From: an uncultured Muribaculaceae bacterium
GTDB lineage: Bacteria; Bacteroidota; Bacteroidia; Bacteroidales; Muribaculaceae
Length of the DNA stretch: 64,000 bases
Direction of reading: 5' to 3'
Assembly: GCA_947625935.1 (NCBI GenBank)
Contig: CANQQE010000010.1
Location: 1-64,000, forward strand
A program made the position numbers and the translations under genes. Below, one piece after another: positions 21,444 through 36,837 of the stretch (its first letter is position 1; each line of letters starts with the position of its first letter). A model generated the notes under the pieces. That model ran no database searches. It saw only the letters and a program-made list of their open reading frames with translations, and was not told the DNA's origin.

Positions 21444-23738
21444 ATGATTAAAGCAATACCCGCATTGGGGCCGGTTTCGGCTCTGATGCTTTGTGGCGTG
21501 GCTGCATCCGCAGCCACCATAACAGGTGTCGTGACCGACACCGAGACCTCAGAACCCCTCCCTTTCACCACAGTCCGGCTCAACGGCACAACTCTAATCA
21601 CGGTAACCGATGCAGACGGACGCTACACTTTCTCGGGTCTGAAAACAGGCAGTTACACACCGGAAGCCTCCTACACAGGCTACACATCGGCCCGACGCGA
21701 CATAACCATCGCCGACGCCCGACAGGAAGCAGCCGTCGATTTCTCCCTATCCCCCGACGCCTTCATGCTCGACCAGGTCGTCGTCACAGGCAGCAAGAGC
21801 GAGACTAAACGACGGTTCAGCCCCACTCTGGTCAACGTGGTGACGGCCAAGACATTCGACCTCGTCAGTGCCTGCTCGCTGGCCGACGGGCTCAACTTCC
21901 AGCCCGGTGTCAGGGTCGAGAACGATTGCCAGAACTGCGGATTCACTCAGGTGCGCATCAACGGCCTTGATGGACATTATTCCCAAATACTGATGAACTC
22001 ACGCCCCGTGTTCTCGGCGCTTACAGGGGTCTACGGACTCGAACAGATTCCCGCCAACATGATTGAGCGCGTCGAGGTGATGCGCGGAGGCGGATCGGCC
22101 CTGTTCGGCTCGTCGGCAATCGGCGGCACAATCAACATCATAACCCGCGACCCGGTCGAAAACACCGCCGAAGTCAGCCACTCGCTGACACTGATGGGAG
22201 TCACCGGCGGGGATATGGACAACAACACCACCGTCAACGCCTCCGTGGTAAGCCCCAACGAGAAAGTCGGACTGTTCATCTACGGGCAAAACCGCAACCG
22301 CGACGGCTATGACCACGACGGCGACGGCTTCACCGAGATCGCCGCCCTGAAAACCCAGACAATCGGCGCAAGGACATTCCTCCGCGCCACCGACCGCTCG
22401 CGGCTCACTGTCGAATACCACGGCACCCATGAATACCGCCGGGGAGGCGACAATCTCGACCTTCCCCCGCATCAGGCCATGGTGGCCGAGGAGGTCGACC
22501 ACAACATCCACGGTCTGGAATCATCGTTCGACATCCGCGACCGCAGTGGCGACAACCGATGGAACATTTTCGCCGCAATGCAGGACACACGCCGCAAAAG
22601 CTACTACGGAAGCGAGCAAGACCCCAACGCCTACGGGCGCACACACGACCTCGTGGCTCTCGGCGGAGCGCAGTGGACTCATGCCTTCAAGCGTCTGTGG
22701 TTCATGCCCGCCGAGCTGATCGCCGGAGTGGAATACAACTACAACTACCTCAACGACGTCACCATCGGCTACGACCACGACGTGACGCAATGCGTCAACA
22801 TCTACAGCGGTTATCTGCAAAACGAATGGCGCACCGACCGATGGGGATTCCTCGTCGGGGCACGCCTCGACAAGCATTCGCTCGTCGACAACCCCATCAT
22901 ATCACCCCGCGCCAACCTGCGCTTCAATCCGAGCCAAAACCTCAACTTCAGGCTCTCCTACTCCACCGGATTCCGCTCACCGCAAGCCTACGACGAAGAC
23001 TTCCATGTCGCCATTGTCGGCGGCGAGAGGGTAGTGACGGTGCTTGCACCCGGCCTTAAACATGAAAGCAGCAACTCGGTCAGCGGCTCGGTCGACTGGT
23101 ACAGCAACATCGGTGCCGTTCAGACCAATCTGCTTTTTGAACTGTTCTACACCGACCTCAGCGACGTGTTCGCCTTGAGACAGCTTGACCAACCCGACGA
23201 AAAAGGCAACGCCGTCCTTGAGCGTTACAACGGCGACGGAGCCAGAGTCATGGGAGCCAACCTTGAAGCCAAGGCGGTGGTCTCCGACTTTCAGACACAG
23301 CTCGGACTGACGCTACAGCGCAGCCGCTACAAAGTGGCCGAAGCATGGAGCGACAACCCCGATGTCCCCGCCGAGAAACGTATGTTCCGTACCCCCGACC
23401 TTTACGGCTATCTGACCATGAGCTACCGCCCCGTCAAGCCACTCTCCATTGCACTCTCAGCCACCTACACCGGCGATATGCTCGTGCAGCACCTCGCAGG
23501 CTCCGGCACACCCGTCGATGTAGCGGTGAAGACACCGGCGTTTTTCGATGCCAATTTTAAAGTTTCCTACGAGTTGAAACTCACAGGCAAAGTCTGTCTC
23601 GACCTCAGCGCGGGTGTCATGAACATCTTCAACGCTTACCAAAACGACTTCGACAAAGGCTACCTGCGCGATTCAGGCTACATCTACGGCCCTTCGCTCC
23701 CACGCAGCCTCACCTTCTCGGCCAAGCTCCACATCTGA
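21444..23738 (+). CDS. TonB-dependent outer-membrane receptor with carboxypeptidase-like N-domain
   Basis: A 764-residue outer-membrane transporter powered by TonB. After the signal peptide (residues 1-23) comes a carboxypeptidase-regulatory-like beta-sandwich (TITGVVTDTETSEPLPFTTV), then the plug with RINGLDGHYSQILMNSRP and GGGSALFGSSAIGGTINI, then the 22-strand barrel ending LPRSLTFSAKLHI. A Cys pair CQNC lies in the plug just before the RINGL motif, a feature of one receptor subgroup often seen near metal-handling genes. There is no SusD partner, so it is not a typical glycan system. Metal or metallophore uptake is inferred from the His-rich neighbour. Confidence 0.88.
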   Translation: MIKAIPALGPVSALMLCGVAASAATITGVVTDTETSEPLPFTTVRLNGTTLITVTDADGRYTFSGLKTGSYTPEASYTGYTSARRDITIADARQEAAVDFSLSPDAFMLDQVVVTGSKSETKRRFSPTLVNVVTAKTFDLVSACSLADGLNFQPGVRVENDCQNCGFTQVRINGLDGHYSQILMNSRPVFSALTGVYGLEQIPANMIERVEVMRGGGSALFGSSAIGGTINIITRDPVENTAEVSHSLTLMGVTGGDMDNNTTVNASVVSPNEKVGLFIYGQNRNRDGYDHDGDGFTEIAALKTQTIGARTFLRATDRSRLTVEYHGTHEYRRGGDNLDLPPHQAMVAEEVDHNIHGLESSFDIRDRSGDNRWNIFAAMQDTRRKSYYGSEQDPNAYGRTHDLVALGGAQWTHAFKRLWFMPAELIAGVEYNYNYLNDVTIGYDHDVTQCVNIYSGYLQNEWRTDRWGFLVGARLDKHSLVDNPIISPRANLRFNPSQNLNFRLSYSTGFRSPQAYDEDFHVAIVGGERVVTVLAPGLKHESSNSVSGSVDWYSNIGAVQTNLLFELFYTDLSDVFALRQLDQPDEKGNAVLERYNGDGARVMGANLEAKAVVSDFQTQLGLTLQRSRYKVAEAWSDNPDVPAEKRMFRTPDLYGYLTMSYRPVKPLSIALSATYTGDMLVQHLAGSGTPVDVAVKTPAFFDANFKVSYELKLTGKVCLDLSAGVMNIFNAYQNDFDKGYLRDSGYIYGPSLPRSLTFSAKLHI

Positions 23739-23801: not shown

Positions 23802-23833
23802 TTTGGCCGCGGCCACCCCCCGCGTTATCTTTG
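23802..23833 (+). promoter_or_regulatory. Promoter of the RHS-tip operon
   Basis: TTTG (23802-23805), a 20-bp spacer and TATCTTTG (23826-23833) match the consensus exactly. The leader to ATG 23880 is about 40 bases. Every gene from here to 35480 is on this strand with small gaps or ATGA overlaps. Confidence 0.75.
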
Positions 23834-23879
23834 CGGAAAGTGTTATACACCCGATTCATCACACAGCCCCGATAACGCC

Positions 23880-24644
23880 ATGAGACCCTCTCCACTCATC
23901 ACCGACCCGAAAGCCGGCTCATACCCCGGATTCTCCCCCTACGCAAACCGCGGCTGCAACCCGACCCGGAACCTTGACCCCTCAGGCGAGGAGATCGTGA
24001 TAACCCACATGAGCAAGACCTACAAGTTGTGGGACAACGAGGGGGTACTGTTCACCCCCGGAGGTGACGGGGTGAGCGACCCGGTGCCGGAAGAAGTGAA
24101 TCGGATCATCACGGGCATTCAAGACGCCTACACCTACGGGAGCGCGGAGATGGTGGGCAACATGATAAACAGCGACAGGACTTTCACTTATCAGGTCGGT
24201 GCCGCAGACGGCGGCACATTCACCGTGCCCGACGGCAAAGGCGGCTCGATCTCCACCATAGCGCAGGGGGGCAAGCTGTCACGCGAGACCGTGATCGCCG
24301 CGGTGGTACACGAGACCATGCACCACGCCCAGTTCTTGCACGACCAAGGAGGACGGTTCGTGGCAAACGAAGTTGAAGCATACACATTCCAATATGTTGT
24401 AAGCTGTAATATGTATAATAATGAAGTTTTTACAGGATATCCTCGCACATCTACTCCAGACGAATTTGGTAACGTACAGGTAAATTTGGGACTGGATGGT
24501 TACTCTTTTTCAAAATTTATTGATGGAGTCAATACCTTTAAAAACTCGGGATACAATAACAGCGGTAAATATGATTCTTACAAATCGTATTTTCCTCTTT
24601 CATGGAAGCCGCTTCTTAAACTGTATAACATCAAATCTCGTTAA
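23880..24644 (+). CDS. Orphan RHS tip 1 with HExxH metallopeptidase-like domain (5'-shortened)
   Basis: A 254-residue protein with no signal peptide. It begins inside the RHS-associated core motif (TDPKAGSYPGFSPYANRG ... LDPSGE), lacking about 40 residues that tips 2-4 have before it. After DPSGE comes a domain with the zinc-peptidase motif HETMH (His144, Glu145, His148) and a downstream NEVEAY whose Glu could be the third ligand. The last third is variable. From 23904 to 24632 it is colinear with tip 3 at a constant offset of 3752 bases, differing mostly in one 145-bp window. An exported partner gene starts four bases after its stop. It is probably a secreted-toxin C-terminus waiting to recombine onto a core; direct activity alone is unproven. 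Confidence 0.72.
   Translation: MRPSPLITDPKAGSYPGFSPYANRGCNPTRNLDPSGEEIVITHMSKTYKLWDNEGVLFTPGGDGVSDPVPEEVNRIITGIQDAYTYGSAEMVGNMINSDRTFTYQVGAADGGTFTVPDGKGGSISTIAQGGKLSRETVIAAVVHETMHHAQFLHDQGGRFVANEVEAYTFQYVVSCNMYNNEVFTGYPRTSTPDEFGNVQVNLGLDGYSFSKFIDGVNTFKNSGYNNSGKYDSYKSYFPLSWKPLLKLYNIKSR
24538..24632 (+). repeat. Direct repeat C, copy 1 (shared tail of tips 1 and 3)
   Basis: About 95 bp at the 3' end of tip 1 matches 28290-28384 in tip 3 at the same 3752-base offset as the rest of the two tips. It closes the downstream side of the 145-bp variable window. Confidence 0.8.
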
Positions 24645-24648
24645 TGAT

Positions 24649-25623
24649 ATGTATCGCACATTAATATTAATCTTGCTTTCTGCATCAACTTCAATGGCAC
24701 AGTTGCCAACTCGTCCAATGATTTTCAGCAAATCACTGGACGGCCCGCTTTTCAAATGGCCACAATTCAATTTGAATCTCATCTACGGGGAGAACCTGCC
24801 AAATGATATCAAGCTCATCAGGCTTATAGGCGACACCAATTATAACGGTTCTAACGCCATGGATATTAAAGACTCATATTTTAGAATGATTATCTATGCA
24901 CCCGACTCTACCTGTGAGGAATTACAAAAAGTTAAATATGCGTTCGATTCATTAAAACTCCAGACTGTATGCACCAACAATCCCACGACATATATGATTC
25001 CGCATTATCGCGAAAACATCAACCCGGATTTATTAAGCTTTTACGCAAAAGCCTATTGCGATTCCATCCGCAATTGGCTCAACAGCCGGAACAATAAATT
25101 TGCCCGACAAATTATAGGACCGGCCTATGAGGAATATTCTGATAGCTATTACAACCCATGGATTATTAACATATATAATTCGGCGTATCTTCCTGATACC
25201 GTGAAGTTCTCAAACAGGGATTTACTCTCGACAATGGGACGTCGGACAGTGAACTCGTTCGATGCGATGGAGCGGATAAAGGAGGGTACATACACCATAA
25301 AAAGCGGATTGCTGCAACCTGGAGATTCGGTTTATGTAAGTATCACGATTGACAGTTCTCCAAGATACGCCAGCGTGATTAAATTCATCGACCTCAGAAA
25401 CCCGGACAACAACCGGCACGCTGTCATCGAGTCAAACGATTCCGTGCGGGTGGAGTCATGGCTGAGCCCAAAAAGCAGGCGATTAACCACCCTCGCTAAA
25501 AAATATGGCAAAATCATCTCAAAAAGACTTGGGACTATGAAGGAGAAGGCAAAGAAGAACGACACTAATCGGTTTCAATTCAAATATTGGACTGACCTCA
25601 TGATAATTCCCGCAAAACGATGA
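24649..25623 (+). CDS. Exported partner (putative immunity) protein of tip 1
   Basis: A 324-residue protein with a signal peptide (MYRTLILILLSASTSMAQ). The N-terminal 200 residues differ from the other partners, though TNNPTTYMIPHY, NINPDLLSFYAKAY and NSRNNKFARQI have clear counterparts in partner 3. The C-terminal part, from TVNSFDAMERIKEGTYTIKS to a basic end (MIIPAKR), is nearly identical to partner 3. ATG 24649 was chosen for the signal peptide and its four-base distance from tip 1; an upstream in-frame start would overlap the tip. TGA overlaps the ATG of tip 2. A periplasmic immunity role is inferred from pairing and covariation; no family is recognised. Confidence 0.7.
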   Translation: MYRTLILILLSASTSMAQLPTRPMIFSKSLDGPLFKWPQFNLNLIYGENLPNDIKLIRLIGDTNYNGSNAMDIKDSYFRMIIYAPDSTCEELQKVKYAFDSLKLQTVCTNNPTTYMIPHYRENINPDLLSFYAKAYCDSIRNWLNSRNNKFARQIIGPAYEEYSDSYYNPWIINIYNSAYLPDTVKFSNRDLLSTMGRRTVNSFDAMERIKEGTYTIKSGLLQPGDSVYVSITIDSSPRYASVIKFIDLRNPDNNRHAVIESNDSVRVESWLSPKSRRLTTLAKKYGKIISKRLGTMKEKAKKNDTNRFQFKYWTDLMIIPAKR

Positions 25624-25853
25624 ACGCTTTCAGCCTCATAAAATCAAACAATGCCACCGACCGCCTCCGGGAGGGGATGCCCTTCATCGACCACGCCGGC
25701 CTCGGGGCCTACGACAACAGGGCGAGATGGCTCGACGCCGTCGGCGGCTCGTTCTGGCAGCCCGACCCGAAAGCCGCCTCATACCCCGGCTTCTCCCCCT
25801 ACGCAAACCGCGGCTGCAACCCGACCCGCTTCCTCGACCCCTCAGGCGAAGAG
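25243..25853 (+). repeat. Direct repeat A, copy 1 (partner 3' end + tip start)
   Basis: A 611-bp block colinear with 29007-29617 at a constant offset of 3764 bases, with no indel. It covers the conserved last third of partner 1, the ATGA junction, and the first 78 codons of tip 2. About 25440-25710 is nearly identical between the copies. It ends exactly where tips 2 and 4 diverge, just after DPSGE. Confidence 0.85.
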
Positions 25854-26519
25854 ATCGTGATAACCCACATGAACAAGACCTACAAGTTGTGGGACAGCGA
25901 GGGGGTACTGTTCACCCCCGGAGGTGACGGGGTCAGCGAACCCGTCCCGGAAGAGGTGGAAAACATCCTAATGGGCATCCAGGCCGCATACACCTACGGG
26001 AGCGCGGAGATGGTGGGCAACATGATAAACAGCGACAGGACTTTCACTTATCAGGTCGGTGCCGCAGACGGCGGCACATTCACCGTGCCCGACGGCAAAG
26101 GCGGCTCGATCTCCACCATAGCGCAGGGGGGCAAGCTGTCACGCGAGACCGTGATCGCCGCGGTGGTACACGAGACCATGCACCACGCCCAGTTCTTGCA
26201 CGACCAAGGAGGAAAAACCTCAGCCAACGAAGTTGAAGCTAATGTATTCGCATATACCACTTGCATAAATTCCATGAAAGACAGAAACACTCCACTTTTT
26301 CAAATAATGATTGCTCCAAATGAACAGTTTTCAAATGGAGTTTTGCATCTATCAATGCACGGATATTCCAATATGGAATTTATTAATGCAGCTTATGGAT
26401 TCTTTGACTCCATAAGAAATAACACTAATCTATATAATCACTATAAGAAAACGTGGCATGGTCTCCAACTGCAGTCGCTTCTACAAAAATATCGAATACT
26501 CCAACAAAAAATTGATTAA
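25620..26519 (+). CDS. Orphan RHS tip 2 with HExxH metallopeptidase-like domain
   Basis: A 299-residue tip starting MNAFSLIKSNNATDRL, without a signal peptide. The hyperconserved RHS end (FIDHAGLGAYDNRARW ... SFWQPDPKAASYPGFSPY ... FLDPSGE) spans about residues 20-80. The peptidase motif HETMH is at 184-188. After GG (about residue 198) it diverges fully from tips 1 and 3 (KTSANEVEANVFAYTTC on), with an AT-rich sequence to the end. It overlaps the preceding partner gene by ATGA. Residues 14-198 match tip 3 with no change I can see. The start appears copied with the end of the upstream partner, as in tip 4. Confidence 0.75.
   Translation: MNAFSLIKSNNATDRLREGMPFIDHAGLGAYDNRARWLDAVGGSFWQPDPKAASYPGFSPYANRGCNPTRFLDPSGEEIVITHMNKTYKLWDSEGVLFTPGGDGVSEPVPEEVENILMGIQAAYTYGSAEMVGNMINSDRTFTYQVGAADGGTFTVPDGKGGSISTIAQGGKLSRETVIAAVVHETMHHAQFLHDQGGKTSANEVEANVFAYTTCINSMKDRNTPLFQIMIAPNEQFSNGVLHLSMHGYSNMEFINAAYGFFDSIRNNTNLYNHYKKTWHGLQLQSLLQKYRILQQKID
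25659..26213 (+). repeat. Direct repeat B, copy 1 (tip constant region + peptidase)
   Basis: A 555-bp block that matches 27551-28105 at an offset of 1892 bases, with one difference I can see (near its start). It covers residues 14-198 of the tip up to the Gly-Gly after HETMH. Confidence 0.88.
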
Positions 26520-26534
26520 ACCGATCAAAAATAT

Positions 26535-27515
26535 ATGCGTCTTCACATCAAATCTATATTGTTTTTCCTATGGGTTTCTATAACGGGGTTTGCTGCGTAT
26601 TCCAATAATATCAAGGATAAAAGCAGCCCCGGAATCGTTACGGAATTTGAAAGAATTTCACCCAAAATTTTCTTTAACAAAACATCTTACATCGCATTGG
26701 AAGGTATACCAAACAATATAATATCGATTCGTGCAATCGCAACCTCAGAATATCAGAGTCAAAACGATGCTAATCAAACAAAAACGAATGTCGACCTCAT
26801 AATACGATGTTACGATGACAAACTAAAAAGAAATTGGTCTTACCGACAGAGTATTGTGCTTAATCCGGATTCAACAGTAGCTGTTTTTCCGTCTCTATTT
26901 GGGCATAATATCCGTTCACCAATAACTGATACAATCGTAGGCAAAGCGGCCAATGCCATACGCAGTATTATTGAAAGCCGTAATTTCAAATTTCTGCGGC
27001 AACTGACCAATTTGCAACCAGCGGTCAATCAACAAGAGGACAAGTATCTGTTTTGGTTTATTAATCTTATAAATCCTAATAAGCAAATTAATTCAGTTTC
27101 CTATTCACAAAACCCATTCACATCCCGGCAGAGAAAGATTATAAACGATATGGACGACATGGAACAGGTCAAGGAAGGAAAATACGCAATCAGAAGCCGA
27201 GTGCTGCAACCGGGCGACTCGGTTTATGTAAGTATCGGCGTAAGCCGTAACCCCTGATACGAGAGCGTCATCAAATTCATCGACCTAAGAAACCCCGACT
27301 ACAACCGGCACACCATCATCGAGTCAAACGATTCCGTGCGGGTGGAGTCGTGGCTGAACCCAAAGAGCAGGCGGTTAGCCACCCTCGCTACAAAATATGG
27401 CAAAATGCTGTCTAAAAGACTCAATGCCCTGAAAACGCGAGCCGAACGAGACGGTGAGGAAACGTATGAATCTCGATATTGGACCGATCTCATGATAATT
27501 CCCGCCAGACGATGA
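26535..27515 (+). pseudogene. Partner gene of tip 2, broken by an in-frame TGA
   Basis: The frame opens with a signal peptide (MRLHIKSILFFLWVSITGFA) and runs 240 residues to TGA 27255-27257. Beyond it the same frame continues with full similarity to partners 1 and 3 (VIKFIDLRNP, SNDSVRVESWL, WTDLMIIPARR) to TGA 27513-27515. At the homologous site partner 3 has CGA (Arg), so one C-to-T change explains the stop. The N-terminal part is the most diverged of the three partners, as tip 2 is of the three peptidase tips. A truncated 240-residue product may still be made and could retain the N-terminal portion. Its end overlaps tip 3. Confidence 0.75.
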
Positions 27516-28396
27516 CCGCTACCCGCCGCATAGACTCACACGAAGTCACAGACCGACTCCGGGAGGGGATGCCCTTCATCGACCACGCCGGCCTCGGGGC
27601 CTACGACAACAGGGCGAGATGGCTCGACGCCGTCGGCGGCTCGTTCTGGCAGCCCGACCCGAAAGCCGCCTCATACCCCGGCTTCTCCCCCTACGCAAAC
27701 CGCGGCTGCAACCCGACCCGCTTCCTCGACCCCTCAGGCGAAGAGATCGTGATAACCCACATGAACAAGACCTACAAGTTGTGGGACAGCGAGGGGGTAC
27801 TGTTCACCCCCGGAGGTGACGGGGTCAGCGAACCCGTCCCGGAAGAGGTGGAAAACATCCTAATGGGCATCCAGGCCGCATACACCTACGGGAGCGCGGA
27901 GATGGTGGGCAACATGATAAACAGCGACAGGACTTTCACTTATCAGGTCGGTGCCGCAGACGGCGGCACATTCACCGTGCCCGACGGCAAAGGCGGCTCG
28001 ATCTCCACCATAGCGCAGGGGGGCAAGCTGTCACGCGAGACCGTGATCGCCGCGGTGGTACACGAGACCATGCACCACGCCCAGTTCTTGCACGACCAAG
28101 GAGGACGGTTCGTGGCAAACGAAGTTGAAGCATACACATTCCAAAACGTTGTCGGATACAACGCAACTGACAACCAAGATGCAAATAAATACCAGCCGAC
28201 AATAATGATGGATATGTTCGGATTAGCAATCTCCGCTTTGGGCGAGAATGGATATTCCGTGTCGGAATGTTTCAATGGGGTGGATAATTTTAAAAACTCG
28301 GGATACAATAACACCGGTAAATATGATTCTTACAAATCGTATTTCCCATTATCATGGAAGCCGCTTCTTAAATTGTATAATATAAAATATCGTTAA
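27512..28396 (+). CDS. Orphan RHS tip 3 with HExxH metallopeptidase-like domain
   Basis: A 294-residue tip. ATG 27512 overlaps the remnant partner's stop (ATGA) and gives MTATRRIDSHEVTDRL; an upstream in-frame start would lie inside the partner's conserved end. Residues 14-198 equal those of tip 2 (DNA 27551-28105 against 25659-26213). The zinc motif HETMH is at 184-188. From there it follows tip 1: the same NEVEAYTFQ, then a 48-residue window different in sequence but equal in length, then the shared tail FKNSGYNN ... WKPLLKLYNIKYR. No signal peptide. Confidence 0.75.
   Translation: MTATRRIDSHEVTDRLREGMPFIDHAGLGAYDNRARWLDAVGGSFWQPDPKAASYPGFSPYANRGCNPTRFLDPSGEEIVITHMNKTYKLWDSEGVLFTPGGDGVSEPVPEEVENILMGIQAAYTYGSAEMVGNMINSDRTFTYQVGAADGGTFTVPDGKGGSISTIAQGGKLSRETVIAAVVHETMHHAQFLHDQGGRFVANEVEAYTFQNVVGYNATDNQDANKYQPTIMMDMFGLAISALGENGYSVSECFNGVDNFKNSGYNNTGKYDSYKSYFPLSWKPLLKLYNIKYR
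27551..28105 (+). repeat. Direct repeat B, copy 2
   Basis: The copy of 25659-26213 in tip 3. A partial, more diverged copy covers 23904-24353 in tip 1; from 24129 on, tip 1 matches closely too. Confidence 0.88.
28290..28384 (+). repeat. Direct repeat C, copy 2
   Basis: The copy of 24538-24632 at the 3' end of tip 3. Tip 2 lacks this tail. Confidence 0.8.
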
Positions 28397-28400
28397 CATC

Positions 28401-29387
28401 ATGACAATCAAAAAAGTATTCATCACAATTACACTTTCAATGACGGTTCTATCGGCATTGTCAATAACATTTCCAGAGTTCTATAGCCAGTCTATCGACA
28501 TCCCTTTATCCTCCATATCCAAATCTAATTCAATTGATATTTATGATGAAAATATGCCTAAAGAAATTAATTATGTCGTGATTTTTGGATTCTCCGTATT
28601 AAACGATACGAACGTCATGAACATTCGTGAGACCCGGTTTTCAATAATTTTAAAAGCAGCAGACACTACCAAAAATGCAGCAAATAAAATATATCATAAC
28701 AGTACAGACTCGATGAAGAGGATTAAAACAGTTTATTCAGACAATCCACCCACTTATATAACACCTCTTTATAGTAAGAATATCAATCCCGAATTGTATG
28801 ACTTTTATCTGAATACATACAACGACTCTATACATAAATGGCTTAACGGTCGGAACAACAAATTTATAAGACAGATAAGCGGATACTTCTACGCCCCTGA
28901 TTTTAATTGGTTTTACTGCCCATGGACGATTTCTATTTGGAATTCCGCATATTTACCAGACTCAGTGAAGTTCGTAAATAAGAACTTACTCTCAACAAAT
29001 GGATGCCGGACAGTGAACTCGATTGATGAGATGGAGCGGATAAAGGAGGGTACATACACCATAAAAAGCGGATTGCTGCAACCAAGCGACTCTGTTTATG
29101 TAAGTATAGGCGTAAGCCGTAACCCCCGATACGAGAGCGTCATCAAATTCATCGACCTCAGAAACCCCGACAACAACCGGCACGCCATCATAGAGTCAAA
29201 CGATTCCGTGCGGGTGGAGTCGTGGCTGAGCCCAAAGAGCAGGCGGTTAGCCACCCTCGCTAAAAAATATGGCAAAATCATCTCAAAAAGACTTGGGACT
29301 ATGAAGGAGAAGGCAAAGAAGAACGACACTAATCGGTTTCAATTCAAATATTGGACTGACCTCATGATAATTCCCGCAAAACGATGA
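28401..29387 (+). CDS. Exported partner (putative immunity) protein of tip 3
   Basis: A 328-residue protein with a signal peptide (about residues 1-22). It is related along its length to partner 1: NPPTYITPLY, NINPELYDFYLNTYNDSI and NGRNNKFIRQI in the middle, and an almost identical last 110 residues with the same basic C-terminus (MIIPAKR). The shared end is part of a 611-bp block that runs on into tip 4 (29007-29617 against 25243-25853). It overlaps tip 4 by ATGA. Function is inferred as for partner 1. Confidence 0.7.
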   Translation: MTIKKVFITITLSMTVLSALSITFPEFYSQSIDIPLSSISKSNSIDIYDENMPKEINYVVIFGFSVLNDTNVMNIRETRFSIILKAADTTKNAANKIYHNSTDSMKRIKTVYSDNPPTYITPLYSKNINPELYDFYLNTYNDSIHKWLNGRNNKFIRQISGYFYAPDFNWFYCPWTISIWNSAYLPDSVKFVNKNLLSTNGCRTVNSIDEMERIKEGTYTIKSGLLQPSDSVYVSIGVSRNPRYESVIKFIDLRNPDNNRHAIIESNDSVRVESWLSPKSRRLATLAKKYGKIISKRLGTMKEKAKKNDTNRFQFKYWTDLMIIPAKR

Positions 29388-29617
29388 ACGCTTTCAGCCT
29401 CATAAAATCAAACAATGCCACCGACCGCCTCCGGGAGGGGATGCCCTTCATCGACCACGCCGGCCTCGGGGCATACGACAACAGGGCCCGGTGGCTCGAC
29501 GCCGTTGTGGGCTCGTTCTGGCAGCCCGACCCCATGGCCGGCTCATACCCCAGCTTCTCCCCCTACGCCAACCGCGGCTGCAACCCGACCCGCTTCCTCG
29601 ACCCCTCAGGCGAAAAG
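29007..29617 (+). repeat. Direct repeat A, copy 2
   Basis: The second copy of the block at 25243-25853, covering the end of partner 3 and the start of tip 4. A third, more diverged form covers 27140-27560. Confidence 0.85.
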
Positions 29618-30325
29618 TGGGTAATGAACGGCGGATGTTCAAACGGTATGCTTATGTGGGAATGGGATGAAGATGTTTGTTCTCTTAATGAGGCTAAAGA
29701 GAAAGGATATAAGGGTTTCCTTCCATGTGGCTCTATAGTTGACAATGCCAGAATTAACGGCGGAGAATGGGGAAGCGTGTATTTGGGGTATTCCGCATCG
29801 GATGTGTTCTATACCACGTCCAACAAAACCGTAACTCCTTGGCAAGTGGGATGGGAATGGTTGTCAGGAACCGGTCCTCGCCGCAGGGAGTTCCACGACG
29901 GGGATAACTTTGCGGAACAAATAAGGTCACACAGTTCTTTTCAAGAAACACTTAATACCGCTAAATACAATTATTGGCTTATGGCTCAATCTAAAGGAAG
30001 CCGGACTCATTCTTTAAGCGAAATTGAAGGAACTGGCCAGTTCATAAAAGATATAGCCACCGTGCTAACCGCTGGTAAATACGGAAATCTAACAGCGACA
30101 TTCTTGGGGTCATACAACACATCATGGGTCGTGAATCCCGAGTCCGGAATCATAACGTTCACTCTTGAGAACTATACGACTATGGAATCGGCGTCACGGC
30201 CACCCTACATAGGTTATTCCGCATGGTGGCAGAAGTCGGTCGGTGCCGCTATAAATAACTATTTCAACAAGGGGTGGGGATCCAGAACCTCTCAGATTAT
30301 CACCCTCACGGAATCCATTTATTAA
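29384..30325 (+). CDS. Orphan RHS tip 4 with an unrelated C-terminal domain
   Basis: A 313-residue tip sharing the first 78 residues of tip 2 (MNAFSLIKSNNATDRL to FLDPSGE). After that it switches to a sequence unrelated to the peptidase tips. The new domain has many Trp, Gly and Ser residues (GMLMWEWDEDVC, INGGEWGSVYLGYS, TPWQVGWEWLSGTGP, IGYSAWWQKS) and no HExxH. I recognise no toxin family. A Cys pair and a possible short helix at 185-205 are the only other features. It has no signal peptide. The following partner gene is also unrelated to the other partners. Confidence 0.7.
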   Translation: MNAFSLIKSNNATDRLREGMPFIDHAGLGAYDNRARWLDAVVGSFWQPDPMAGSYPSFSPYANRGCNPTRFLDPSGEKWVMNGGCSNGMLMWEWDEDVCSLNEAKEKGYKGFLPCGSIVDNARINGGEWGSVYLGYSASDVFYTTSNKTVTPWQVGWEWLSGTGPRRREFHDGDNFAEQIRSHSSFQETLNTAKYNYWLMAQSKGSRTHSLSEIEGTGQFIKDIATVLTAGKYGNLTATFLGSYNTSWVVNPESGIITFTLENYTTMESASRPPYIGYSAWWQKSVGAAINNYFNKGWGSRTSQIITLTESIY

Positions 30326-30343
30326 ATTAACAATCCACAAATT

Positions 30344-30751
30344 ATGAAATGTCTGTCAATATTTTTCATTTTCCTTATAATCGCCGAAATGTGCGGTAGC
30401 CTGAATAGAGACGACTACACACGCGAGGAATTCATCGGCACGGAATGGCAGGGGCCCGACGGTGCGACACTTCGATTCATCAGCCGTGACTCAGTGACAT
30501 TCAGAAACGTCAACTGGGATTCGATTACCAGCAGGTGGGAAGCGGCAAAGGAATTTCCGTCCTCCGGAACTTATACCTGGACTCTAGCGACTTTATTCCG
30601 TGATGAGCCTGAAATCGACATATTTTTCCCGGGGACATCTATTAGTTTCAGCTTGCGTCAGCGACGATGGAAAACGCAAATATATACATATATTGGCGAC
30701 CCCGATTTGTTGGATTTATATGTTTTTAAGCAAGTGGAAAACAATAAATAA
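30344..30751 (+). CDS. Small exported partner (putative immunity) protein of tip 4
   Basis: A 135-residue protein beginning with a hydrophobic signal (MKCLSIFFIFLIIAEMC) that may be lipidated at Cys17 or cleaved nearby. The body is beta-rich (GTEWQGPDGATLRFIS, SGTYTWTLATLF, IDIFFPGTSISFSL), like small lipocalin-type periplasmic proteins. It starts 18 bases after tip 4. It has no similarity to partners 1-3, matching the change of tip domain. Its role as immunity protein is inference from position. Confidence 0.6.
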   Translation: MKCLSIFFIFLIIAEMCGSLNRDDYTREEFIGTEWQGPDGATLRFISRDSVTFRNVNWDSITSRWEAAKEFPSSGTYTWTLATLFRDEPEIDIFFPGTSISFSLRQRRWKTQIYTYIGDPDLLDLYVFKQVENNK

Positions 30752-30799
30752 AATATATAAATCTCCTGTCAACCAACCGTCCAACTTCATCATTCGACA

Positions 30800-33700
30800 A
30801 TGAAAATTCTGAACATATTCACGCTGCTACTATCGGCCACGTCATGTTGCCTTACGGCGCGCGCCGACGACCAGACGCAGAACTACGCCCCGAGAGACTA
30901 CTCCATTATTCCACCGTCGCCTGAGGTCGCATCTTTGATTAACTTCTACGACATACCCGTGGACTACTTCCACGGGCTCCCCGACATAACGCTGCCCATT
31001 TACGAGCTGACCCAAGGCTCGCTGAAAGTCCCAGTGTCGATACGCTACCACGGTGGCGGGGTAAAAGTCGAGGAAATGGAAGGGAATCTCGGACTAAGTT
31101 GGGCACTGGTGGCGGGTGGAGTAATCGCACGCACGGTTTATGGTGCGCCCGACGACGCAAACGAAACCAACCTAAAGGGGCTCTTTAACGCAAGAGAAAA
31201 TGACAAAAAATTACGGACATACGTTTTAGGCAAAAAAGCAGATTATTTGGCATATGATGTGGACAACTACATTGAATACCACGCAATTCAAGGCATCTAT
31301 GGAATGGATTATTTCAACGGTAAATCAGATATGGCTAATGATATACTTAAAATCAGCGGATTGGGTCTCTCAGGGACATTTATTTACGGCGACAACCGAA
31401 AAGCGGTCGTAACGACCGATAAACCATTGAAGATTGAGCCGTCATCATTATCGGCTAACAACGCCCATTATCCGAGCCTATACACCATAAATGATTGCAA
31501 TGGGGTAACATATCTGTTTTCAACCGAGGAAGAAAGCGTCTACAAGTATAAACATGGGGATCCACAACTGGCATTATATGAAGACTCCTTGCGTTACACC
31601 TCGGCATGGCATATCACCAAATTAATAAATTTACAAAATGACAGCATCACATTCCATTATCGTCAAAAAGGCAAAAAGCTGTCACCAGATAACAGCAGGC
31701 TGACTACTTGGTACAGAATGGAAAATGAATACATCGAAATGTACACGCCGCCGACCTCATATTCCATCGGTGAAGGTATATATTATCCCAAAGTATTGGA
31801 ATCTATTGAAAACAACAATACTATAATAAAATTTCACTATAAAAATTTCGGAACCGCCAATAGACCGAATGAATTTATAGATTATATCGAAATCAAAACC
31901 AGAGGGGACAACCCTATCACCGCCAAGCGTTATGATTTTATCTACACGGAATATGGCAATTACTATTTTGACGCTTATTAGTTATCAGATAGGAAGAGAA
32001 TCATGCTCACAGAAGTAAAATTAAATGGCAAATCTTTGTATAAATTTGAATATAACACAGATGACAACGGATTTATAACCTTTTCAGGATACAGTCGAGA
32101 CCATTGGGGGTATTATAACGACCGGGATAACGCAGGTGGACTGATTCCATGGTGTGGTATGCTTTATGGTGAGGGCGCCGACCGTTCCGTAAACCCGAAC
32201 GCTGCCACGATGGGTGCTCTAAAATCCATAATATACCCCACTGGAGGAAAGTCGGTACTCGAATGGGAGTCAAATGAATACGGATATTTCAAAAATGCGC
32301 CTATCTCCAAATCGATTAATACCCCAACAATAACATCATTTGAATCCGATACCCTGGTAGGTCTTGAACCCGCAAATCTACAGAAACTGAGGATTAACGA
32401 TTTCAAAATAAGCAATAACGAGGTGGTTTATCTTGACCTGAGCCGGTATTTCTGCTTCAACCCGCAGATTCTGGCTTTGAGCGAATATGAACACGAACAC
32501 TCCTACGACCTGAGGCCGCGATACCCCGGTGTTTACTTTTTCCGTAACGGCTCACAAAGCAACGAGCCGGTGGCTGTGTACTATATCGACAAGCCGACAG
32601 TGGAGGAGAGGAACAACAACACGCAGTTTGAGGTGGTGTTGCCCGCCGGGAGCTACAGAGTGGAGCTTCGCGACCGCATATCGGTGGAGGGGCGTGAGGA
32701 TGAAATCAAGGCGCAGTTCCTATATGATTACGGCACTTGTGGACGAATCTTCCTCCGCCGATGCGAAACGGTCGGTGGTGCGGCTGCGTCAATTACAAAA
32801 GATTATTGGGGCGGCTTGCGGATAAGGCGTATCATTTCAGACCCGGGGGACGACGGACAACCTATAATCAAGGATTATTTTTACAACAGTACGACATCCC
32901 CTGATGAGTGTTCCGGTACGGTAGGGGCATACCCAAACCATTACTATCATTATTATTTTCAGGCACAAATGCTGCATCACGCAGGGATGCACCGAGCCAT
33001 GATACAGTGCATAACATCCCACGGATTCTATAATCTGCCCACAGGCGATCCATGCGGGGTCGAATACCCGGAAGTAACGATCAGGTACTCGGGAGCCGAC
33101 CGATACGAACCCTCAACTCTGCACAACTACGGCGAAAAGTATAGTTACAGTTCGCTTAAAGATGACGGCAGCAGAGACTTCAACAACTCCGATTTCCTGT
33201 CATTCCAACCGAGATATTCACAAATGTGGACTTCCAAAGCGCACCGCCGAGGCAATCTGCTAAAAAAACAGACCGGTGTCATATCACCGCTTGATATCAC
33301 GGCATATGAGTATGACATCTATGAATCAAACGATACGACAGTGTTCACAACCGACCTGTTCACCATTGCTGATTTCAGTAGAATACACACTACGGGGCTA
33401 AATCAGTGCGCCTACGATTTCGGAATCGGGAAATACACGCTTATACCTTATAACAAGACCGTCAAGCGGGAGCGATACACCGAGGCCGAGGGGTTTGAGA
33501 CCGAGACGGAGTATGAGTACTTCTACGACGAATACACCGACAAACTCGACCGTAACCTCGTCAAAGCCAAGCGCACGACCGATTCCGACGGCTCTCCCCG
33601 CGCAGTCTACTACACCTACCTGATGGCCGCTCCCAACCTCGCCTTAGACTACCCTGAAACTGAGGTGACAGTGGTCGACGGCAAGATAGTCGACGCATCG

Positions 33701-34258
33701 AGAATGGAGTATGACGAGCACAGGCGGCTGAAAGCGGTCTACGGGCTGTCGGTGAAAAACGCCGACGCTTCGGCCTACGGCTTAGGGGGCAAATCGGCTT
33801 CGGCCAAACTCCGGGAGCTTATAAGCCGCCCCGAATACTCCTACAAATACGACTACCGGGGGAATCTCGCCGAGATAAGCTACAACGGAGTGGTACTGGC
33901 GTCATACCTGTGGGGCTACATGGGCAGCTACCCCATAGTCGAGGCGAAGTTTCTACCCCATTCCCAACTCGTGGCGGCAGCCGGACAAGCCGACGGGCGC
34001 ACGGTGCAGTCGCTGCTCGACGGCTCGTTCACGTCGGCCGCACAGCTCAACGGATTCTTCACCAAACTCAGAGCGCAACTCCCCGCGACGGAGCTGACGA
34101 CCATGACCTACCACTGGCTGCTTGGCATCTCGGAGGCCACCGACCCGCGGGGGGTGAAAACGACATTCACCTACGACCGGCTCGGACGACTGTCAGGAAT
34201 AAAAGACTACAACGGCTATTTCATCAAAAAGTACCTCTACCACTTCAAAGAAAACTGA
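30800..34258 (+). pseudogene. Secreted YD/RHS-repeat core protein gene interrupted by an in-frame TAG
   Basis: One frame of 1152 sense-equivalent positions is split by TAG 31979-31981 into 393 and 751 residues; only 21 bases separate the stop from the next in-frame ATG at 32003. The N-terminus has a signal peptide and the typical Bacteroidota opening PSPEVASLINFYDIPVDY ... YHGGGVKVEEMEGNLGLSW. The second part carries YD-type repeats (YKYDYRGNLAEISY, FTYDRLGRLSGIKDYNG) and ends soon after. It lacks the RHS tip motif DPSGE that the four orphan tips have. TAG may have arisen from CAG (Gln). Either the protein is lost, is made as two pieces, or the stop is read through. The end is eight bases from the next gene. 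Confidence 0.78.
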
Positions 34259-34265
34259 CAACGAT

Positions 34266-35480
34266 ATGCTGGCGATAATATTAGCGGCCGCTGCGGCAAT
34301 AGCCCCGGCCATAGACAGAAACCACAATATGCCGCGGCCCGGCGACCGCCTGACGCTGACCGAACTGTCGGCAACGGCTGTCACCGCCGACACCCTGGCC
34401 GTTTACGACTTCTCCGGCTCAAAGGCCGCGGGGGAAACAGGCTTGCGTTACGCCGGCATTGGCGACACGGCACTCATGGAGATATGCCCGCGCGAGGTCA
34501 GGCTATACCGTCCCGACAGCGCGGGGCTGACATTGGTCGAGGAACGACGGCCCGGACAGACCGTAACCGCCGTCAATCCCGAGCGGGTAACCCCGATGCC
34601 GTCACGTCAGGGCGACACGCGCGAAGGCCGGTTCGTCACTTTCGGCAGATTGGGCACTCTCAGCGAGATACAGGAGTCGGGCCGAACGGAAAGCCGAGTG
34701 AAAGGCAATCGCCTCATAGTCACTCCCGAGGGCGACTCCATCAGCGATGTGACCCACCTGCGGTATGAGAAAAACGGCGCCATGTCGGCGTGGCTGCCGC
34801 GGCCGCTGCATCCGGCTCTCGCCGACACCCTCTATGCACCCGCCGACAGCATAGACCGTTTCCTCGCCGCCGACACGGTGACCCACCGGCGCATAATCAA
34901 CTCATGGTACGCACCGGGCTACAGATACCCGCTGATACAACAGACCATCAACCTGATATATGTCAAAGGCATCGAAAACGACCGCCGGATCCTCACACTC
35001 TACTATCCCCGGCAACGGCAAGAGGAGGAAATCACCGACGATCCCGACAATCAGGAAATTCGCGACAAAAACAGGTTCGAGGGATTCATGGCCGCCAACA
35101 CCCCGAATGCCGACGGCAGCCCGCACCAAAGCCCGTCATCACCGGGCGGAAACCGGGCTAACGGCGGTGACGGAAACTCAGGCAGGGCATCAGCCGGCAT
35201 CGCCGGCAACGGTGCGCCGGGTAGCGGTGGATGGTGCGACGTCAGCCCCGTGGTAGCGACCGACAAAACCGTAGCCTCCATATGCCCCGCCGAAAGCGGA
35301 GAGGCGATAGTCACGCTCACCAACAACGCCGGAGCATTGATGTGGTCGCAAAAAGCTACAGCCGAGGGCGGCACGGCCATATCCGTCGAATGCCCCATGA
35401 CCGACATGGCACCCGGAAGCTACCTGATCACGGTCTCCGCCCCGGGACTGCGTCGGACGTTCAAGATTGTGAAACCGTGA
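34266..35480 (+). CDS. Secreted protein with T9SS-type C-terminal tail, partner of the YD core
   Basis: A 404-residue protein whose N-terminus (MLAIILAAAAAIAPAID) looks like a short signal peptide. The middle is a beta-rich unknown domain. A Gly/Ser/Asn/Pro-rich linker lies at about residues 280-320. The C-terminus (SGEAIVTLTNNAGAL ... GSYLITVSAPGLRRTFKIVKP) resembles a type A sorting domain of the type IX secretion system. It starts eight bases after the YD core gene, so the two are co-translated and may be secreted or displayed together. It ends the operon. Confidence 0.72.
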   Translation: MLAIILAAAAAIAPAIDRNHNMPRPGDRLTLTELSATAVTADTLAVYDFSGSKAAGETGLRYAGIGDTALMEICPREVRLYRPDSAGLTLVEERRPGQTVTAVNPERVTPMPSRQGDTREGRFVTFGRLGTLSEIQESGRTESRVKGNRLIVTPEGDSISDVTHLRYEKNGAMSAWLPRPLHPALADTLYAPADSIDRFLAADTVTHRRIINSWYAPGYRYPLIQQTINLIYVKGIENDRRILTLYYPRQRQEEEITDDPDNQEIRDKNRFEGFMAANTPNADGSPHQSPSSPGGNRANGGDGNSGRASAGIAGNGAPGSGGWCDVSPVVATDKTVASICPAESGEAIVTLTNNAGALMWSQKATAEGGTAISVECPMTDMAPGSYLITVSAPGLRRTFKIVKP

Positions 35481-35616: not shown

Positions 35617-36837
35617 ATGAATGTTGTAGACCGCTTTTTGCAATATGTCAAGTTTGACACTCAGAGTGACGAACTGACCAACATGACCCCGTCAACCCCG
35701 GGGCAGATGATTTTCGCACAGCACCTCGAAAAAGAGTTGCAGACACTCGGACTGAAAGATATTTCTCTCGACGACAACGGCTATCTGATGGCAACACTGC
35801 CCGGCAACGTGGATCACTCAGCCCCAACAATCGGCTTCATAGCCCACTTAGACACATCACCCGATATGTCTGGCCGCCATGTGTCGCCGCGAATCATCGA
35901 GAAATACGACGGCGGCGACATAACACTCAACGCCGAGCGTGGAATCGTGCTGTCGCCCAACGAGTTCCCTGAGCTGCTGCACTATGTCGGCCAACCCCTG
36001 ATAGTAACCGACGGCAACACCCTCCTGGGTGCCGACGACAAAGCCGGAATAGCCGAAATCATATCGGCGGTCGACTTCCTGATGCACCACCCCGAGATAA
36101 AACACGGCGACATACGCATCGCCTTCAACCCCGACGAGGAGATAGGCCAGGGTGCGCACAAATTTGACGTGGAGCGTTTCGGGGCCGACTGGGCTTACAC
36201 TATGGACGGAGGCGAAATCGGCGAGCTTGAATACGAAAACTTCAACGCAGCCGTGGCCAAGGTCACTTTCCGAGGCCGCAACGTACATCCAGGCTATGCG
36301 AAACACAAGATGATCAACTCAATACGCATCGCCAACCAATACGCCATCATGCTTCCCCGATGGGAAACCCCCGAGCACACCGAAGGCTACGAAGGGTTCT
36401 ACCACCTCATATCCATCCAAGGCTCCGTCGAAGAAACAGTGCTCACCTACATAATCCGCGACCACGACCGCGACCGCTTCGAGCGGCGCAAAAAAGAGCT
36501 TGAGCATCTCGCCCGCAAGATCAACAACGAGTTCCCCGGATGCGCCTCGATTGAGATAAAAGACCAATACTTCAATATGCGCGAGAAAATCGAGCCTGTG
36601 ATGCACATAATCGACATCGCGGAGCAGGCCATGCGCAACGTCGAGGTAACCCCCGTGGTTGTCCCCATCCGCGGCGGCACAGACGGAGCGCAGCTATCGT
36701 TCAAAGGGCTACCCTGCCCCAACATATTCGCAGGCGGCCTGAACTTCCATGGCCGCTACGAATTTCTCCCGATACGCTCCATGGAGAAGGCGCGCGACGT
36801 CATCGTCGAAATCGCGCGACTCGCAGCCGAAAAATAA
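35617..36837 (+). CDS. pepT: Peptidase T (tripeptide aminopeptidase)
   Basis: A 406-residue cytosolic M20B zinc peptidase that removes the N-terminal residue of tripeptides. Zinc-site motifs are [25 protein letters not shown] and [14 protein letters not shown], then the His in [11 protein letters not shown]. The dimerisation insert lies in between. Length is normal. It is first of three tightly packed genes (5 bases to miaA, then a 4-base overlap). The 135-base gap upstream contains a weak -7 box TAACTTCG (35549-35556). Confidence 0.95.

Follow-up and report, generated by a model that had tools for sequence, protein, structure and literature searches.

The window analysed here is a stretch of 64,000 nucleotides from an uncultured Muribaculaceae bacterium (source genome G000; GenBank assembly GCA_947625935.1, contig CANQQE010000010.1, positions 1 to 64,000), and the locus in question is a row of plus-strand genes at 23802-35480, which looks like the remnant of a two-part rearrangement hotspot (RHS) toxin system that is more complete in related bacteria. 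Between a TonB-type receptor gene on the left (21444-23738) and pepT on the right (35617-36837), both named by eye, the plus strand carries four pairs of a tip gene and a partner gene, followed by a two-part YD-repeat protein (A) and a protein with a sorting tail of the type IX secretion system (T9SS), referred to as T. The features, with the basis of each call in brackets (ORF, open reading frame; aa, amino acids), are as follows:

23802-23833, plus strand: promoter-like site of the Bacteroidota type, exact match to TTTG-N20-TAnnTTTG (motif scan).
23880-24644, plus strand: tip 1, 5'-truncated remnant of the RHS-associated core and a HExxH metallopeptidase-like domain (ORF, homology, alignment).
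24649-25623, plus strand: partner 1, probable immunity protein with a signal-peptide-like start by eye from 24649 (sequence).
25620-26519, plus strand: tip 2, junction of about 78 aa and a HExxH/NEVEA metallopeptidase-like domain (profile match, alignment, model).
26535-27257, plus strand: partner 2, ended by an in-frame TGA at 27255-27257, the remainder of the frame lying at 27258-27515 (reading-frame comparison).
27512-28396, plus strand: tip 3, with the N-terminal enzyme half of tip 2 and a variable C-terminal half (profile match, codon comparison).
28401-29387, plus strand: partner 3, probable immunity protein (sequence comparison).
29384-30325, plus strand: tip 4, junction as in tips 2 and 3 and a distinct toxin-like domain (profile searches, codon comparison).
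30344-30751, plus strand: partner 4, 135 aa, signal-peptide-like, outside the profile of partners 1-3 (profile search, hydrophobicity rule).
30800-31981, plus strand: first part of A, signal-peptide-like start by eye, ending at an in-frame TAG at 31979-31981 (ORF).
32003-34258, plus strand: second part of A, YD repeat, no tip (profile match, relatives).
34266-35480, plus strand: T, with a T9SS type A sorting-domain-like tail below cut-off (profile match).

The promoter proposed in the initial annotation is confirmed as an exact match to TTTG-N20-TAnnTTTG, which we take to be the Bacteroidota promoter consensus. It is the sole such match on the plus strand between 21041 and 58940, and the window as a whole contains 6 sites vs 0.60 expected from shuffles. 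The four plus-strand tips with ATGA overlaps are recovered as well, the partner/tip joints being exact at 25620-25623 and 29384-29387. Within the genus, the source genome is the only one of 4 that has the tips; for one tip-less sister, genome completeness is only 68%. Upstream of pepT, two sisters whose context is complete have other genes, and in the third a contig end cuts the region.

A match to the second part of A was found in 20 of 199 family genomes, the source genome among them, and all 12 other loci with E <1e-60 were fetched, so that the compared regions were chosen by match and not at random. In these relatives A is about 1,150 aa long and bears no tip in any of the 12 loci, none of its ORFs containing an RHS junction. 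A homologue of T directly follows A in 12 of 12 (gaps −125 to +17), and in 7 of them T is followed by B, a protein of about 1,100 aa that bears both the RHS-associated core and a tip (in L063 B leaves the contig before the tip). As for the layout of the window, which the initial annotation did not recognise from a described system, B or a tip end with partners also stands ahead of A and T in 3 of the 12 loci (L067, L071, and L073; in the last two the contig ends within the ORF that bears the tip); the A-T-B order belongs to seven other loci. A contig end is reached in 2 of the 12 A loci. This answers why the core has no tip: the shell comes in two parts, and it is B that carries the tip. Elsewhere A and B are joined in a single protein of about 2,000 aa, and according to our own profile, a T homologue lies directly upstream in 8 of 14 such fused loci, one of the 8 being L122, with a gap of 241 bp. 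Neither part of A matches the SpvB domain at E<=1 in Pfam, which presumably holds a model of it, and the second part of A and the B of genome G089 gave no usable match among PDB sequences.

Among the T proteins of the split kind, 7 of the 8 scanned (of 13, window included) match a T9SS type A tail model, with 3 above cut-off and none detected in L071. At the fused loci, the sorting-tail model TIGR04183 matches 6 of 10 scanned proteins (1 above cut-off, 2 with E near 0.08), one further protein matches only a model of T9SS-dependent proteins, and those of L087, L112, and L121 match nothing. In total, TIGR04183 is above cut-off in 4 of 18 T or T-position proteins (L067, L072, L073, and L117). The source genome itself encodes a T9SS, as indicated by SprA (TIGR04189, 2730 bits) and by 24 sorting-tail matches at E<=0.001, 21 of them over cut-off.

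The body of B has no match in the source assembly, a draft of 150 contigs: a query with the B of G089 hits nothing there but the junctions of the four tips and one different RHS end. Tips 2-4 align at their junctions to B residues 848-918 (51-53% identity), and tip 1 to residues 884-917 (47%). So far as the assembly can tell, the half that bore the tip has therefore been lost apart from its C-terminal ends; tip 1 is possibly a remnant of B itself. Likewise, no full-length main gene of the same kind was found in this draft. The different RHS end (L085, contig C110 of G000, 261-1895) is a second RHS C-terminus near the start of a 4.9-kb contig. It was rejected as the lost B, being 32% identical to B over residues 810-919 and carrying a different tip.

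Two genes are interrupted. The initial annotation described one YD-repeat core, and the YD repeat is indeed present; A, however, consists of two ORFs (30800-31981 and 32003-34258) in the same frame, divided by the in-frame TAG. Similarly, all four tip/partner pairs exist, but partner 2 is cut by its TGA, after which the frame runs on to the shared C-terminus. Recoding was rejected, as both codons regularly terminate ORFs in the window: of 33 ORFs that start with ATG and reach at least 300 aa, 19 end in TGA, 9 in TAA, and 5 in TAG, a count that takes in A's own TAG and a few overlapping frames. Partners 1, 3, and 4 keep intact frames, and the ratio of nonsynonymous to synonymous rates (omega) between partners 1 and 3 is 0.19-0.21. 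The idea of nothing but decaying duplicates was also rejected, as omega is below 1 in most compared parts; the junction shared by tips 2 and 3 departs from this, with omega 1.73 (11 nonsynonymous and 2 synonymous differences).

The tips had been described as ending in DPSGE. On the contrary, this motif closes a stretch of RHS-associated core, about 78 residues long, at the start of tips 2-4, and the toxin domain comes after it; tip 1 lacks the first ~40 residues of the remnant and keeps only its end. The Rhs_assc_core model TIGR03696 scores 28.5-31.3 bits on tips 2-4 (3 of 4 tips), just under the cut-off of 32.5. Judging by their sequences, tips 1-3 belong to a single HExxH/NEVEA metallopeptidase-like family that is uncatalogued; the domain of tip 4 is a different one. 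Searches of tips and partners against Pfam and NCBIfam gave no usable family apart from the RHS matches: the enzyme of tips 1-3 matches no Pfam model at E<=1, the window tips match none of the curated metallopeptidase toxin models (Tox-MPTase and similar), and the toxin-like domain of tip 4 (29630-30322) matches no family of either library. Across 12 aligned enzyme members (from the window, named genomes, and metagenome-assembled genomes, two rows being nearly identical), DUF6782 is found on 2 (best E 6.8e-4) and Peptidase_M91 on 1 (E 0.075), and the invariant positions are H102-E103-xx-H106, Q109, Q114-G-G, and N121-E-V-E-A. In the predicted structure (mean predicted local distance difference test, pLDDT, 77.8; predicted template modelling score, pTM, 0.82), HExxH and NEVEA lie on neighbouring long helices (93-111 and 119-140), a layout consistent with a zincin in which a glutamate would be the third ligand. 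The alignment retrieved only two designed miniproteins among PDB sequences (E 0.2 and 1.6).

This enzyme domain is rare, occurring in G000 and 3 others among 393 order genomes (a count without G038 and G043, which were found by the tip search of family genomes), and at 8 loci of the named-genome collection, two of them from one Barnesiella genome. The check suggested earlier, namely tips fused to cores in other genomes, gave a positive answer: L087 (Barnesiella sp. WM24) and L094 each have a metallopeptidase tip at the end of a full RHS protein, of 2016 and 2075 aa, respectively. In L092 the domain lies at the end of a 3004-aa protein, where blastp finds no junction. The tip query found nothing near-identical in the 199 family genomes, though the exact tip start MNAFSLIKSNNATDRL was not sought; the best junction match among the fetched relatives is that of L076 (58% identical).

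According to a simple hydrophobicity rule, applied to mechanically picked ORF starts and partners, none of the four window tips has a signal-peptide-like start, in agreement with the initial annotation, and export of these tips by signal peptide was rejected. Among orphan tips of relatives, 6 of 21 have such a start, two of them doubtful (L076 is a partner-like fusion, and in L079 the hydrophobic stretch is late). Several orphan tips of relatives start like A or B (L062 12398-13459 and 14213-14647, L065 9236-10147, and L070 13386-14261), where the A-like starts are 131-132-bp repeats of A's 5' end at 84-86% identity and the B-like ones were seen by eye. Joined to a junction and a new tip, they may be secreted mini-toxins or deletion products. 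In other Bacteroidota metagenome-assembled genomes (L091-L093), a small secreted-looking protein follows the metallopeptidase-like tip; in L091 and L092 it has no similarity to the window partners.

By position, an immunity-like gene lies directly downstream of each of the four tips, one of these genes being broken, and the partners are probably immunity proteins. The signal peptides ascribed to them are supported for all three partners paired by the hydrophobicity rule and, by eye, for partner 1. No relatives of the partner family were found outside G000 among 398 family genomes, and phmmer gave no match to partners 1-3 for 11 partner candidates beside related metallopeptidase tips. The structure model of partner 3 (pLDDT 41.9) was not used. 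A signal-peptide-like partner occurs in 23 of the 32 tip rows of relatives where the mechanical rule found a partner; since the partner in some rows has no signal peptide, some toxins may act in the cytoplasm. Two further arrangements were seen: L076 (3904-4758) has a secreted partner-like protein in frame with an RHS junction, possibly a product of cassette joining or a pseudogene, and L071 (9626-11998) has three tandem partner paralogues (232-236 aa, 77-83% identical DNA repeats) between the tip end and A, perhaps an antidote-only array.

Six blocks of 85-94% identity recur among the units, the longest of them covering 951 bp (90%), and the row is therefore more than chance; for instance, 25177-25850 and 28941-29614 are 90.5% identical. 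The main blocks are the following:

25267-26213, plus strand: constant block (end of partner 1, junction, and N-terminal enzyme half), 90% identical to 27159-28105 (DNA repeat comparison).
24351-25302, plus strand: variable block of unit 1 vs 2, from the C-terminal half of the tip to the N-terminal part of the partner, 38% GC (change-point fit).
26210-27195, plus strand: variable block of unit 2 vs 3, 36% GC (change-point fit).

For unit 1 vs 3 the change-point fit places the variable block at 24391-25380. The replaced block thus takes in the second half of the toxin and the first two thirds of the partner, between alike flanks. Identity among units 1-3 is 46-62% inside the variable blocks vs 87-95% outside, and the change-point gains (146-258) compare with at most 13.5 in column shuffles (60 per pair). 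Tips 2 and 3 have 0 differences over 121 codons of the first enzyme half, after which the synonymous distance (dS) is ~2.8, a value near saturation and read merely as large. Such a jump in synonymous distance does not come from protein selection and can be produced by recombination. The variable blocks have a GC content of 35-38% (units 1-3) or 45% (unit 4), the constant blocks one of 54-62%, against a background median of 53.9 and minimum of 38.4 (485 windows of 900 bp). Tip and partner identities per pair (66/45, 33/26, and 32/23%) agree in order, over three points only.

A comparable mosaic is found in genome G047, where a block running from the middle of the tip to late in the partner is 56.4% identical between the end of B and its own orphan, compared with 99.0% outside it (change-point gain 220 vs 8.0 in shuffles); the tip halves are 99.2 and 58.9% identical, and the partner parts 34.5 and 94.5%. 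The G047 tip has no blastp match to the window tips at E 1e-3, and hhalign reports E 0.14 and a probability of 0.4%. This weak best alignment, however, falls on the HExxH...NEVEA stretch, which two other compared tips did not show, so distant kinship is possible and the G047 mosaic may be less independent. At L069 (7440-8027), the G047 tip reads E-E-F-V-H...E-Y-E-A where the window family has H-E-x-x-H...N-E-V-E-A, a correspondence that is not significant. In G038 two orphan metallopeptidase tips are alike in the left block only (94.6%), a one-sided mosaic, and at several other loci the junction alone is common and the tips differ.

These observations fit a locus derived from an RHS polymorphic-toxin system with a split shell (A-T-B-immunity) by loss of the body of B, a reading to which we give a probability of roughly 70%. 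It is based on gene content, homology, the absence of a B match in the assembly, the lesions, and the mosaic; shell formation, T9SS export, toxicity, and immunity are what we infer. Where relatives have the intact locus, Sec would export A and B, which would close as an RHS shell around the toxin that B carries at its C-terminus, T would use its T9SS sorting tail for surface delivery, and partners with signal peptides would protect the envelope. Recombination between repeated flanks, as the repeats and the mosaic suggest, would add or swap units of a tip half and a partner beside B. In the window, the machine would have been lost and the cassettes kept, leaving four C-terminal ends of B with partners, an interrupted A, and T. 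With no B shell to display the tips, the locus is not an active store; most likely it is a decaying A-T-B locus without B, perhaps kept for its antidotes.

Several points weigh against this reading. B may conceivably lie on a piece missing from the draft, and a sequencing error or polymorphism might account for the lone stop in A. All tip frames are open, and omega for tips 1-3 is below 1 (0.33 for the constant enzyme half, tip 1 vs 2 and 3; 0.26-0.59 for the variable half), so the decay would be recent or partial. The T9SS-like tail reported for the last protein is seen again, but at 20.9 bits it is below the TIGR04183 cut-off of 23. Moreover, 6 of the 14 fused loci (L094, L112, L114, L116, L118, and L119) have no T homologue directly upstream by our profile, although in L112 a T-like gene lies on the opposite flank, and ten weaker A-like genomic places were left out of the locus comparison.

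A broader proposal is tentative and falls somewhat short of an even chance. It takes A-T-B to be a three-gene RHS toxin in which two separately exported halves enclose the toxin and the T9SS-tailed T brings the complex to the surface, the cassettes evolving by the swap of a 'recognition block' made of the C-terminal half of the toxin and the N-terminal part of the antidote.

Regarding the alternatives, it is possible but rather unlikely that, after the loss of B, the locus has been kept as an antidote array in which partners 1, 3, and 4 act against kin with the same tips, the tips being passengers and recombination arms. The intact frames of these partners, the low omega between partners 1 and 3, the single promoter-like site at the head of the row, and the reported or proposed immunity repertoires, including an orphan CdiI made apparently without its toxin (PMC3150448), agree with such an array. 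However, the tips are as intact as the partners, partner 2 is broken, and the absence of the partner family from the other family genomes searched leaves no known attackers with matching tips. A working store, as the initial annotation had it, with tips recombined onto the core, is improbable. Long common blocks suit recombination, recombination between main and orphan rhs genes is reported for Salmonella (PMC3967940), and in G047 the full-length B and an orphan have 531 bp in common at 99.8% identity. The claim that the cassettes feed a toxin gene is not supported, however, given the missing B body and an A that is interrupted here and a tip-less half in all 12 relatives. An assembly artefact, with repeats that collapsed or mis-joined B and stops that are errors, is held to be just as improbable: near-identical repeats do assemble poorly in a draft of this kind, but the left breakpoint (~23900) lies at a repeat edge with sequence of its own upstream of tip 1, the GC and mosaic blocks recur regularly, and the B body is on no contig. 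Finally, free-standing toxins exported by an unknown route are very improbable, given that no window tip has a signal-peptide-like start, although the tips have their own starts coupled to partner stops and a few orphan tips of relatives do have one.

Orphan RHS and contact-dependent inhibition (CDI) modules, cassette exchange, and recombination of immunity arrays are known (PMC3967940, PMC3150448, PMC3482391, and PMC9484751). The orphan rhs-CT/rhsI and cdiA-CT/cdiI modules of Enterobacteriaceae (PMC3967940 and PMC3150448) resemble the window in having short tips in a row, often with a core remnant and each with an immunity gene, and their recombination with the main gene has been proposed or shown. 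In contrast, the window has no main tip-bearing gene, its tip starts overlap partner stops, and the variable block of units 1-3 runs from within the toxin domain to within the partner. Polymorphic toxins with toxin/immunity cassettes, including TcdB/TcaC-type RHS proteins of Bacteroidetes (PMC3482391), also combine a constant trafficking part with exchangeable cassettes and have HExxH metallopeptidase tips on RHS proteins; unlike them, the enzyme of the window is without a Pfam match at E<=1, and A has no SpvB match. A split A/B with T in between does not appear in the passages of PMC3482391 available, and the T9SS term has 0 occurrences in the text searched.

As for T9SS export, it has been hypothesised for the TANFOR toxins of Bacteroidetes (PMC7073777), which mostly have signal peptides and neighbourhoods enriched in T9SS-tailed proteins. 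The present system differs from them in its RHS shell and in the pairing of T with A in 12 of 12 loci, beyond mere nearby enrichment. The first part of A has no NCBIfam or Pfam match, the presence of a TANFOR model in those libraries being unconfirmed. The esaG arrays of the type VII secretion system (PMC9484751) are likewise tandem paralogues with homology blocks and variable regions that recombine into mosaics; these, however, are immunity genes, whereas the block replaced in the window joins the C-terminal half of a toxin with the N-terminal part of its immunity gene. DNase-immunity exosites of colicins and pyocins (PMC4548480) share the constant catalytic part and the variable antidote-binding part, but the enzyme is different, and antidote contact in the window is suggested by covariation of three pairs only. 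No description of A-T-B was found in the literature searched, which left out most subscription papers and in which not all searches were aimed at A-T-B.

The claim of orphan RHS cassettes of the toxin/immunity-like kind, belonging to a Bacteroidales system with a link to a T9SS-tailed gene, is thus supported. A split shell with the tip on the other half offers a reason why a Bacteroidales RHS core can be tip-less, and a family of RHS toxins is here connected with a T9SS-tailed partner that recurs across loci, so that the question of T9SS-delivered polymorphic toxins becomes testable in relatives. In two genomes, with tips of no significant mutual similarity, toxin and antidote sequence appears to be swapped as one DNA block over two adjoining genes. 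If the broader proposal is true, A-T-B would be an RHS delivery route unlike those of the type VI secretion system, CDI, or TcA, and toxin and antidote would shift specificity jointly while the catalytic half stays fixed.

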